45,797 bases of DNA from Lachnospiraceae bacterium (GTDB taxonomy: Bacteria; Bacillota; Clostridia; Lachnospirales; Lachnospiraceae). The stretch lies in the NCBI GenBank assembly GCA_017437965.1, contig JAFRWN010000123.1:1-45797 (forward strand), given 5' to 3'. The notes beneath the pieces are model-generated. The model had not been told where the DNA came from. It searched no databases and was given only the letters and a program-made list of their open reading frames with translations. Of this stretch, positions 17,131 to 37,222 are shown one piece after another (positions within the stretch are counted from its first letter, which is position 1; every line of letters begins with the position of its first letter). The translations under genes and the position numbers were made by a program.

Positions 17131-18999
17131 ATGAGATTTACTGACTGGATAAATGATTTTGAGCCGCTCGGACGCGAAAAGCTTTTGAATATCGTTGGCG
17201 AAGTGCTTGAGTGGATAGAAAGCTATTCATATGAAAACGGAGATGAGACATACTGGGATGTGTTCCCTGAAGGCCCCAAAGGAGGCTTCATGCTTTCCGA
17301 TTCGGGAATCTATGCAGGTTCTGCCGGAATCGCACTGCTTTATTTAAGGCTTTTTAATTCTACCGGGGATCCCGGCTATCTGAAAAAAGCGGAAGCAGGG
17401 ATCAATCATGTAATAGCCGTGTATAAGGGAGAAGATGATTTTAAGACTGATTCGGATTCGATTATGGGTACTTCCATCGGTTACCTTAACGGACCGGCAG
17501 GAGGTGCCTATGTCGCAAAGGAACTCTATAAAATCAACGGCGATGAAAAATACAGGGATTTTGCGCTTCGTGTTGCGTATGACTGCATAAAGGCTGCCAA
17601 CGAAGAGAGCGGGGCGCTGTACTGGAGGGGTATTTACGGTATCATCAGTGAGGGAAGCCTGGTGCTGTTTCTTCTTGATATGTATGATACCTTCGGAGAC
17701 GAAAAATTCCTTGAGGCTGCGGTTAAAGCAGGAGAGTATATTGACAGAAAAAAGGAAAATGCTCCGCAGGGAGGCTGCAGATGGTATGCTATGCCGACGG
17801 ACACTTTCCCTACCATTAAAAAAGCAGGAGGCTATTTCCCGGGCTTTGAATACGGGGCGGCCGGCTGCGGATATATTCTTGCAGGTCTCTATGAACATTC
17901 AAAGCAGAAAAAATATCTTGATACCGCGATAAAAGCCGCAAAGTATATCATGAATGTTGCGGATTATTCAAAAGACGGCAGCGCGGCCCTTGTCAGATAC
18001 AACGATACTTATCTTACCGACCTTTACTATCTGGGAGTATGTCAGGGACCGGTCGGGACTTCAAGGCTTTTTTATAAGCTGTATTGTCTTACCGGTGAGG
18101 AAAAGTATAAAGAGTTTGTTATCAAACTTACGAACGGTCTTTTGGCATCGGGGGCTCCAAAAGTACACTCGAGAGGATACTGGAGGACCAATTGCTATTG
18201 CTGCGGCGCTGCAGGAATGCTGGAACATTTTCTGCACATGCACAGGCTTAGCGGAGAACAGAAATATCTGGATGCCGCTTATTCTGCGGCGGAAGAGCTT
18301 ATCGGCGCATCGACTGCAGACGGAAAGCAGAGAAAGTGGTATACGGCATGGAACCGCCATGAACCGTTTAAATCGGAGGCATATACAGGACTTTATCACG
18401 GTTCGGGAGGATGTGCGGCTGCGCTTCTGGCACTGGCCCAGTATATCGACGGAAAATCCTTTGCTCCGTTCTATCTTGAGGATCCGTATGCGGTACTGTA
18501 TGAAAGGTTTGAATTTAGGGAGATAAGAGAGAGCGAAGCACTTCAGGCAGCGGAGGTAGAAAGCATATGTTTTCCGCCGAATGAGGCGTGCAGCATTGAA
18601 CACATGACCGAGCGCGTGAAAGCGGCTCCCGAGCTGTTTTTGGTCGCACTTGACAAAGAGACCGGAAAGATCGCTGGTTTTTTAAACGGGATTTCGGTAA
18701 ATGAGGATAGCTTCAGGGATGAATTCTTTACGGATGCTGCAATCCATGTTCCGGGCGCCGCTAACGTAATGCTTCTTGGACTTGATGTTTTGCCCGAATA
18801 CCGGGGACTGGGCCTTGCGAAAAAGCTGGTCGGGATCTACAGGAAAAAGCAGCAGGAAAGAGGAAGCAAAAGACTGGTTCTGACCTGCCATGCCGAAAAA
18901 ATCGGAATGTATGAAAAATTCGGTTTCCATGACCTCGGAGCATCCGCATCGGTCTGGGGCGGTGAAAGCTGGCATGAAATGGATATCTGCCTGTCATAA
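17131..18999 (+). CDS. LanC-like alpha/alpha-barrel protein fused to a GNAT acetyltransferase
   Basis: The 622-residue protein has two parts. Residues ~1-450 form a LanC-like toroid with repeated Gly-rich turns (YAGSAG at 61, LNGPAG at 119, YGAAG at 241, CQGPVG at 304, CCGAAG at 357, YHGSGG at 422). The first zinc Cys (357 or 358) and the zinc His (423) of LanC are present, but the Cys preceding that His is Tyr422. Residues ~455-622 are a GNAT domain with the acetyl-CoA motif YRGLGLAK at 557-564. There is no lanthipeptide precursor nearby, and the position in the sulfur cluster suggests handling of a small thiol or thioether substrate; this is speculative. AAGGAG precedes the start. Confidence 0.75.
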   Translation: MRFTDWINDFEPLGREKLLNIVGEVLEWIESYSYENGDETYWDVFPEGPKGGFMLSDSGIYAGSAGIALLYLRLFNSTGDPGYLKKAEAGINHVIAVYKGEDDFKTDSDSIMGTSIGYLNGPAGGAYVAKELYKINGDEKYRDFALRVAYDCIKAANEESGALYWRGIYGIISEGSLVLFLLDMYDTFGDEKFLEAAVKAGEYIDRKKENAPQGGCRWYAMPTDTFPTIKKAGGYFPGFEYGAAGCGYILAGLYEHSKQKKYLDTAIKAAKYIMNVADYSKDGSAALVRYNDTYLTDLYYLGVCQGPVGTSRLFYKLYCLTGEEKYKEFVIKLTNGLLASGAPKVHSRGYWRTNCYCCGAAGMLEHFLHMHRLSGEQKYLDAAYSAAEELIGASTADGKQRKWYTAWNRHEPFKSEAYTGLYHGSGGCAAALLALAQYIDGKSFAPFYLEDPYAVLYERFEFREIRESEALQAAEVESICFPPNEACSIEHMTERVKAAPELFLVALDKETGKIAGFLNGISVNEDSFRDEFFTDAAIHVPGAANVMLLGLDVLPEYRGLGLAKKLVGIYRKKQQERGSKRLVLTCHAEKIGMYEKFGFHDLGASASVWGGESWHEMDICLS

Positions 19000-19068
19000 C
19001 AATTTTGACAGGGTTGAGAAAAACGATGAGTATCTGTAAACTACCTTCGGAAAAGAGGAAGCATAAAA

Positions 19069-19506
19069 ATGAAAATATCAACAAAGGGCAGATATGCCAT
19101 ACGCGTCATGCTGGAGCTCGGAAATTATTACAAATCGGAGGATCCGGTAACGGTAAAAGAGATTTCAAAACGGAATGATATCTCGGATAAATATCTTGAA
19201 CAGATCGTATCGATGCTTTCAAAGGCAGGACTGATACGGAGTATCAGAGGTGCAAAGGGTGGCTACATGCTTACACATGACCCCGGATCATACAGTGTTG
19301 CAGATATTTTAAAGGCAAGCGAGGGCAATCTCTCTTCGGTCGAGTGCAGTGAGTTAAGTGGCGAGGGCTGTAATAAAAAAGACAGATGTGTCTCAATAAG
19401 GATATGGAAGAAACTTGACGGCGCGGTATACGAAGTGTTAAACGGCATAAAGCTTTCGGATCTGTTAGAATGGCAAAGCGAGCAGAGCGATCAGTATATC
19501 ATATAA
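19069..19506 (+). CDS. Rrf2 family transcriptional regulator (IscR/CymR-like)
   Basis: The 145-residue protein has the Rrf2 winged helix (MKISTKGRYAIRVMLELG at the N terminus, ISDKYLEQIVSMLSKAGLI as recognition region, GAKGGYML wing). Three cysteines, 93, 101 and 107 (C-x7-C-x5-C), are placed as the Fe-S ligands of IscR-type members, so it may sense Fe-S status; CymR-type members instead sense cysteine supply. It is encoded 69 bp after the LanC-GNAT gene and 34 bp before nitrogenase-like pair 1. It is the obvious candidate to bind the CC-N13-GGAA boxes across the cluster. Confidence 0.9.
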   Translation: MKISTKGRYAIRVMLELGNYYKSEDPVTVKEISKRNDISDKYLEQIVSMLSKAGLIRSIRGAKGGYMLTHDPGSYSVADILKASEGNLSSVECSELSGEGCNKKDRCVSIRIWKKLDGAVYEVLNGIKLSDLLEWQSEQSDQYII

Positions 19507-36788: not shown

Positions 36789-36796
36789 GGAGCGAG

Positions 36797-37222
36797 ATGG
36801 ACTATAAAATTGCTTTTGCCTCCTCGGACGGGGAGATGATTGACCGAAGTTTCGGCGCTGCCAATCGTTTCTACATCTACGAGGTAGAGGACGGCAGGAC
36901 AAGCTTCTCAGAGGTCAGGGAATTTAACGCGGAGTTACCTGAAAAGGATACGGAAACCGGTGCCAGCTGCGGTGAAAAGACAGGCTGCGCCGGGAACGGC
37001 GGAGGATGCGGCGGCGGAGAGTGCGGCGCAAATCCGAAGGTTGAAGCCCTGTCCGACGTCAGATGCATAGTTGCGGAAAAAATAGGATTTAACATCCGCA
37101 GGCAGCTAGAAAGAAAAATGATAGCGGTGTTTGATGTAAAAGTACCGCTTGCGGAGGCACTTGATAAGATAAGTACCTATTTTGACAAGGTGGACCGGCA
37201 TATTTCATTGAGAAATAGCTGA
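36797..37222 (+). CDS. NifX-like protein with Cys/Gly-rich insert
   Basis: The start chosen is ATG 36797 with AAGGAG five bases upstream; the in-frame ATG at 36779 lies inside K2. The 141-residue protein begins like NifX (YKIAFASSDGEMIDRSFGAANRF) and ends like it (AEKIGFNIRRQLERKMIAVF). Between them, residues ~55-78 form an insert with Cys58, 64, 71 and 76 in a Gly-rich context (GCAGNGGGCGGGEC). These four cysteines could hold an Fe-S cluster or the cofactor precursor. It closes the nif-like operon. Confidence 0.8.
   Translation: MDYKIAFASSDGEMIDRSFGAANRFYIYEVEDGRTSFSEVREFNAELPEKDTETGASCGEKTGCAGNGGGCGGGECGANPKVEALSDVRCIVAEKIGFNIRRQLERKMIAVFDVKVPLAEALDKISTYFDKVDRHISLRNS

Follow-up and report, generated by a model that had tools for sequence, protein, structure and literature searches.

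A nitrogenase-like locus of a Lachnospiraceae bacterium with a Mar-type pair and a second pair of its own clade: a candidate system for sulfur scavenging

Introduction

Among the described systems closest to the locus considered here are nitrogenase-like enzymes acting on sulfur compounds. In the methylthio-alkane reductase (Mar) of Rhodospirillum rubrum, Cys66, Cys91 and Cys158 of MarD serve the P-cluster, Cys270 and His429 bind the [Fe8S9C] cofactor, Arg428 is described with His429 as a hallmark, and Trp195, Phe199 and His375 are also named; the cofactor histidine of nitrogenase, NifD His442, lies in a different loop from His429 (PMC12552129). IsrD, of the isethionate reductase (Isr), is described as having one of the three P-cluster cysteines and missing the cofactor cysteine, and the same account already places nitrogenase-like sulfur enzymes in intestinal bacteria (PMC11423573). 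Here we describe a window, i.e., the whole stretch of 45,797 nucleotides that was analysed (contig JAFRWN010000123.1 of assembly GCA_017437965.1, Lachnospiraceae bacterium), in which two nitrogenase-like component-1 pairs, D1K1 and D2K2, accompany one NifH and one NifB amid sulfur-related genes. An original prediction had read this cluster as a Mar-like C–S bond reductase that channels the sulfur of an imported organosulfur compound into cysteine and Fe–S clusters.

Earlier work has already described several DK pairs as common within single genomes, Heliophilum having five such pairs and one NifH (PMC9147875), and a preprint on mlp clusters notes clusters of other kinds in which Mar-like genes lie close to genes for sulfur metabolism (PMC10418091). 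From the gut, Igai et al. list nifH of the Lachnospira/Butyrivibrio type, belonging to Cluster III, as a sign of candidate N2 fixers, and in their account NifD homologues occur with and without the histidine, never without the cysteines (PMC4995403). The titles and abstracts brought up by literature searches held no description of the arrangement presented below.

Results

The genome of the window (a 2.54 Mb draft, 94.6% complete with 6.1% contamination) codes for exactly four PF00148 proteins, all inside the window, where they form two pairs: D1 (19541..20986), an alpha-like subunit, with its beta-like partner K1 (21001..22311), and D2 (33968..35443) with K2 (35388..36788), all on the forward strand. 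The locus is thus one of two component-1 pairs of differing kind. In a D tree with Mar, Nif/Vnf and NifE references, D1 and D2 both fall outside the Nif/Vnf clade (98/94), and D1 falls outside the Mar and NifE clades as well; in the K tree, K1 and K2 likewise lie outside Nif/Vnf. The phylogeny therefore sets both pairs apart from the true nitrogenases, in keeping with the original prediction.

It is to D2K2 that the proposed relation to Mar applies. The best PDB match of D2 and of K2 is R. rubrum MarDK (9fmg/9d9u; 301 and 380 bits, the next molecules reaching 111 and 92), D2 joins MarD in a clade at 100/100, and K2 joins MarK in one clade at 98 in the Shimodaira–Hasegawa-like approximate likelihood ratio test (SH-aLRT). 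Conservation was assessed in orthologue sets made up of the 120 best of 1168 hits for D2 and the 120 best of 756 for D1, plus fetched loci. The Arg-His loop (loop I, equivalent to MarD Arg428-His429 and present in the window's D2 as Arg411-His412) is kept in 177/177 close D2 orthologues, as are the equivalents of Trp195, Phe199, His375, Cys158 and Cys270; those of Cys66 and Cys91 are kept in 174 and 175 of the 177, the rest being gaps (the four cysteines are C52, C77, C143 and C255 in the window's D2). The three P-cluster cysteines of K2 recur in 60, 61 and 61 of 61 orthologues, the remaining case being a gap. Within the joint clade, D2 forms the sister branch of the one holding R. rubrum MarD; the position of MarD Cys73 is taken by Gly in the window's D2 and by Gly, Ser or Ala in the closest D2-type sequences of the alignment, and those of NifD Val70, Gln191 and His195 by Gly/Gln, Trp and Phe. 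D2K2 most likely performs reductive C–S cleavage with chemistry of the Mar type, in the service of cysteine synthesis. The first start of K2 falls within D2, and two relatives start at the position matching MAKLIDKQRYKC; the true start is therefore likely a later in-frame one.

D1K1, which the original prediction had counted in the same reductase cluster, does not qualify as Mar: it forms a clade of its own (100/99), and the Arg-His loop is absent from D1 in 196/196 close orthologues, the loop being shortened. Its best PDB match is also MarDK (232 bits for D1 and 244 for K1, the runners-up reaching 121 and 120.5). D1 C49, C74, C142 and C260, the equivalents of MarD C66, C91, C158 and C270, are kept in all 196 close orthologues, and K1 keeps the three MarK P-cluster cysteines in 75/75. 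With these cysteines all in place, the electron path and the cofactor site look intact. Two further residues are invariant in the close D1 orthologues, namely Cys180, where MarD has Trp195, and His424, which sits in the loop of the nitrogenase cofactor histidine. HMMER (with two solved NifD-type chains) and HHalign (with a NifD/VnfD profile) place His424 on nitrogenase His442, and by both the spacing from it to the next G-[YF]-x-G equals that of nitrogenase. The histidine is retained in a 46%-identical D1 relative from another family and has no counterpart at that position in two named NifE references; it may bind the cofactor. At the positions of NifD Val70, Gln191 and His195, D1 has Ala, Cys and Phe.

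The NifH of the locus (33083..33934) is of the nitrogenase type and not a MarH: it scores 475 bits to Clostridium pasteurianum NifH versus 288 to MarH, falls into one clade with two true NifH (100/100), away from the NifH encoded beside Mar-type D genes, and is called "nitrogenase iron protein" by a curated model above its cut-off (461 versus 394 bits). NifB (31798..32667), a radical SAM protein without a NifX domain, is a true NifB by its 297 bits to the solved NifB, and it has a CX3CX2C motif at residue 33; its curated-model match of 262 bits (cut-off 344) covers only positions 6–278 of the 441-long model. Two NifX-like cofactor-binding proteins belong to this set (NifX1, 32692..33054, between NifB and NifH; NifX2, 36779..37222, after K2), so that the proposed Mar-like order B-H-D-K is found as B-(X)-H-D-K.

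One NifH and one NifB were found in the window's genome. A panel of 22 carrier genomes comprised 18 with D1 and four with D2 only, one assembly probably being counted twice. A single NifH is present in 18 of the 22 (15 of the 18 with D1) and a single NifB in 20 (17 of the 18 with D1), and the number of PF00148 proteins is again exactly four in 13 of the 16 other D1 genomes. In two Butyrivibrio hungatei genomes and in Butyrivibrio sp. LB2008, the sole NifH is this one, and the four component-1 proteins are D1K1 and D2K2. The window's genome, at its 94.6% completeness, is without NifEN, since it has no PF00148 protein beyond the two pairs; nitrogen-fixation regulators, NifEN and NifV were likewise not seen in the window.

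Scanning GTDB genomes gave 185 confirmed stretches with D1, of which the best 80 loci were kept, 28 of these having 10 kb on both sides. In these 80, D1 is 83–87% identical across Lachnospiraceae, Ruminococcus, Butyrivibrio, Eubacterium and Treponema, and the titles of many of the loci point to a rumen or gut sample; identity this high over two phyla suggests lateral transfer. K1 follows D1 directly in 80/80 loci, with a median gap between aligned ends of 18 bases. A search for D2 in 50 of the 80 D1 genomes, mostly those without D2 visible near D1, recovered an orthologue (81–88% identity, one partial) in 40, including all nine named isolates. In a class-wide survey of 391 genomes (orthologues at >=83%, i.e., at least 83%, identity for D1 and at least 75% for D2), D1 occurs in three and D2 in seven, all three D1 genomes being among the seven; each of the four D2 genomes without D1 is 96–100% complete. 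This pattern indicates that D2 is independent of D1, and D1 seemingly depends on something that D2 clusters supply. In four Treponema/Spirochaetaceae loci (L026, L060, L063, L065), with D1 at 85–86%, the importer lies directly downstream of K1, a likely case of cross-phylum transfer.

Further kinds of component-1 proteins came to light alongside these. In L013 and L120, proteins from the window's own family show an IsrD-like pattern of D, C, P and N at the four cysteine positions and are candidate isethionate reductases. L011, L099, L101 and L104 represent another clade, with the loop I histidine without the arginine and Met or Val for Trp195, and in G171 a pair of this type and a D2-like one form a tandem arrangement around NifB-NifX-NifH.

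The genes around the two pairs agree with the original prediction in set and order, as profile matches on the window proteins place all of them on the forward strand in the sequence foreseen; the assigned start, 17131, was amiss, being that of a LanC-like and GNAT fusion (17131..18999) that is not part of the nitrogenase-like set, rather than of D1. A relative of this fusion at 50% identity or more lies close to D1K1 in 5/80 loci. An SsuABC-like importer (14132..16962; SsuA-family binding protein, permease and ATPase, all below equivalog cut-offs) and cysteine-synthesis genes do adjoin the pairs as proposed. CysK (23351..24289) matches cysteine synthase A (TIGR01139) at 449 bits against a cut-off of 351, and PALP2 (24459..25493) is a second, cysteine-synthase-like pyridoxal phosphate enzyme that scores 243 bits where the cysKM cut-off is 344. 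To these are added a PatB-family C–S lyase (30471..31655; 442 bits, cut-off 340), a LysR regulator by profile match (22325..23239) and an Rrf2 regulator (19069..19506) for which the CymR and IscR models are nearly tied at 124.3 versus 120.2 bits, both under cut-off.

Neighbourhoods of other D1 loci show which of these genes recur. Among the 28 with 10 kb on both sides, D2 is near D1 in 16, NifX2 in 17, NifH in 10, CysK in 11, PALP2 in 10, the permease in eight and SufB in none; PALP2 stands upstream of D2 in some relatives. Over all 80 loci, the PatB lyase, regulators of the Rrf2 and LysR types and the SsuABC-like importer recur as well. Further neighbours among the 80 are NifS-like (11) and NifU-like genes (eight), with examples above cut-offs, a CysE-like acetyltransferase (11), the example being below cut-off, and a cystathionine-type enzyme (nine), whose matched models include sulfhydrylases further down. 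Above the 49% identity level or at it, the importer permease is present in 15 of the 18 D1 genomes and two of the four D2-only genomes. The sufCBDSU genes (25669..30478), of which SufS and SufU score above cut-offs, have no counterpart at 50% identity or more in any of the 80 related loci, 28 of them with 10 kb on both sides; they seem to be local neighbours outside the conserved unit, and a feed of sulfur into Fe–S clusters through them is not a conserved trait, although NifS-like and NifU-like genes stand in some loci.

Sulfite reductase (PF01077) gave no match in 20 of the 22 carriers, 11 of 14 control genomes being positive; PF01507 is absent from the window's genome and over cut-off in 10/22 carriers and 14/14 controls. 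With most carriers lacking a sulfite reductase match, sulfite would be a dead end as far as the known siroheme enzymes go, and the product is likely sulfide or a thiol. Methanethiol, the product of Mar, would not need CysK, and the neighbours would point rather to sulfide.

Upstream of the importer lies an accessory module of a DUF4418 protein, an FtsX-like permease and an ATP-binding cassette (ABC) ATPase (11833..14118). Of 97 related loci, 11 hold relatives of both the DUF4418 and the FtsX protein (25–40% identity), in variable order relative to the importer; in Eubacterium ruminantium (L217) the set stands between the importer and CysK-NifB. In two Butyrivibrio D2 regions (L203, 3371–5467; L211, 17347–19437), a distant SsuABC-like importer precedes a His-rich protein about 700 residues long, that of L203 being of the Prismane/CO dehydrogenase family and that of L211 being judged alike by its start only. 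The window further codes for a 1281-residue protein without a Pfam or NCBIfam match (39747–43592), preceded by a GNAT gene, and, upstream of the cluster, for a Fic-domain protein (10148–11227) and a glycosyl hydrolase family 59 protein (3887–6316).

Discussion

The reading that we favor, with somewhat more confidence than doubt, is of a sulfur-scavenging system in which two pairs share one NifH and one NifB: D2K2 would cut C–S bonds of imported organosulfur, the CysK enzymes would make cysteine, and D1K1 would act as a second reductase, in a clade of its own. The SsuABC-like importer would bring in the substrate; NifB would make the [Fe8S9C] cofactor, which the NifX proteins might carry to D2K2 and D1K1; NifH would feed electrons to both pairs in an ATP-dependent manner; D2K2 would split the C–S bond of an organosulfur compound; and the product, presumably sulfide or a thiol, would yield sulfur that the CysK enzymes could turn into cysteine. 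The claim that an organosulfur C–S reductase cluster feeds cysteine synthesis is thus supported in part: what endures is the Mar affinity of D2K2, the gene order, the SsuABC-like importer and the cysteine-synthesis neighbours, with D1K1 standing outside Mar.

For D1K1, whose electron path and cofactor site look intact while the ligand loop and pocket are changed, the most likely role is that of a second reductase drawing on the NifH and NifB that D2K2 uses, a maturase being the main rival. A more far-reaching proposal, which we hold only tentatively, is that D1K1 represents a new functional class: a Mar-like scaffold without the Arg-His loop, in which His424 would hold the [Fe8S9C] cofactor and Cys180 would replace the active-site tryptophan, sharing NifH and NifB with D2K2 for a second reductive step; the "cluster III" nifH that Butyrivibrio and its relatives carry, widespread in gut and rumen, would then belong to a sulfur system and not to nitrogen fixation.

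Several observations weigh against the favored reading. The match of His424 to His442 depends on the aligner, as MAFFT puts His424 two columns earlier, and Cys180 is not kept in the 46%-identical relative, which has a His there; the genome of that relative (G117, 73% complete) is also without a D2 orthologue, as are 10 of the 50 D1 genomes searched, all of them metagenome-assembled, with incompleteness a likely cause. The permease was not found in three of the 18 D1 genomes and is either missing or distant (38%) in two of the four D2-only genomes, and the SsuA-family binding protein reaches 83 bits against a curated cut-off of 163.5, far below the SsuA and taurine cut-offs. In Butyrivibrio hungatei D1K1 stands away from sulfur genes, and sulfite reductase is present in one genome with D1 (G350) and one D2-only genome (G085).

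Unlikely, and yet the best surviving of the alternatives, is that D1K1 is a cofactor assembly scaffold, a counterpart of NifEN maturing [Fe8S9C] for D2K2. It would account for D1 genomes mostly carrying D2 (40/50, and 3/3 in the 391-genome set), for the single NifH and single NifB in most D1 genomes, and for D1K1 often coming directly after NifX2; some homologues are also named "nitrogen fixation protein NifE" in databases. The occurrence of D2K2 without D1K1 in four nearly complete genomes speaks against an obligatory maturase, as does the fact that Mar and Isr, as published, are single BHDK sets (PMC12552129, PMC11423573). D1 moreover lies outside the NifE clade, with a profile far nearer to Mar than to NifE (588 versus 256), and K1 retains all its cysteines, two of which have been lost in 3/3 NifN references. 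One VnfN reference retains all three, however, so that a maturase may also have the full set.

Less probable still is that D2K2 is an ordinary methylthio-alkane reductase delivering methanethiol for methionine, with D1K1 a minor paralogue. The Mar-type residues and clade of D2 are what it would predict; its place in a sister branch to that of R. rubrum MarD, the Gly at the Cys73 position and a nitrogenase-type NifH instead of MarH are not, and the neighbour is CysK, though the cystathionine-type enzyme is near in a few loci. Isethionate reduction, with sulfite freed from a sulfonate imported by SsuABC, has the precedent of a BHDK set with an SsuABC-like importer in Rhodobacter capsulatus (PMC11423573); it is made very improbable by D1 and D2 keeping all four cysteines, as against the one P-cluster cysteine and absent cofactor cysteine of IsrD, by a true NifB here that IsrB does not resemble, and by the want of a sulfite reductase match in 20/22 carriers. 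Least probable of all is a minimal nitrogenase, with D1K1 fixing N2 without NifEN like the proposed group IV NfaDK of Endomicrobium: the nitrogenase-type NifH, a His424 at or near His442, the full cysteines and a similar argument by Igai et al. for gut relatives (PMC4995403) are outweighed by the Ala, Cys and Phe of D1 at NifD Val70, Gln191 and His195, by the lack of nitrogen-fixation regulators, NifEN or NifV in the window, and by neighbours that are sulfur genes.

Thus, sulfur removal from organic compounds, rather than nitrogen fixation, is the likely work of the cluster, and a nifH clade that has been counted as one of the candidate gut diazotrophs is probably part of this system; it would follow that gut nifH surveys probably overcount nitrogen fixers. 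D1 and D2 fit the NifD homologues of Igai et al., as compared by description only (PMC4995403). Were the sulfur-scavenging reading with a reductase role for D1K1 true, the few enzymes built on nitrogenase clusters would gain a new functional clade; the Mar-type and nitrogenase-type loops would constitute a natural swap of cofactor ligand, offering a direct test of substrate choice; and carriers without sulfite reductase would have a route from organic sulfur to cysteine. It would also correct the picture of the gut, where the sole NifH of the Butyrivibrio genomes above is this one, yet NifH of the Lachnospira/Butyrivibrio type is listed as a mark of candidate N2 fixers (PMC4995403).

Comparison with known systems

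Among known systems, MarBHDK of Rhodospirillum rubrum (9fmg, 9d9u; PMC12552129) has the same B-H-D-K order and is like D2K2 in the joint clade, the P-cluster cysteines, the cofactor cysteine Cys270 and the Arg428-His429 loop; the present locus differs from it in the nitrogenase-type NifH, the replacement of Cys73 in D2, the NifX and CysK/PALP2 genes, and the second pair, D1K1, without Arg-His. IsrBHDK with SsuCAB of Rhodobacter capsulatus joins a nitrogenase-like enzyme to a sulfonate-type importer in sulfur assimilation (PMC11423573), as the present locus may do with its SsuABC-like importer, but the cysteine pattern of IsrD and the type of IsrB are unlike D1, D2 and NifB here. Nitrogenase itself, with NifHDK, NifEN and NifB, shares the NifH type, NifB and the P-cluster cysteines, and D1 His424 stands in its His442 loop, whereas D1, D2, K1 and K2 are outside the Nif/Vnf clades and there is no NifEN here. 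A parallel might finally be struck, by description, with the heliobacterium Heliophilum fasciatum, in which several NflDK pairs go with one NflH and no NifEN (PMC9147875), just as two pairs go with one NifH in this locus.

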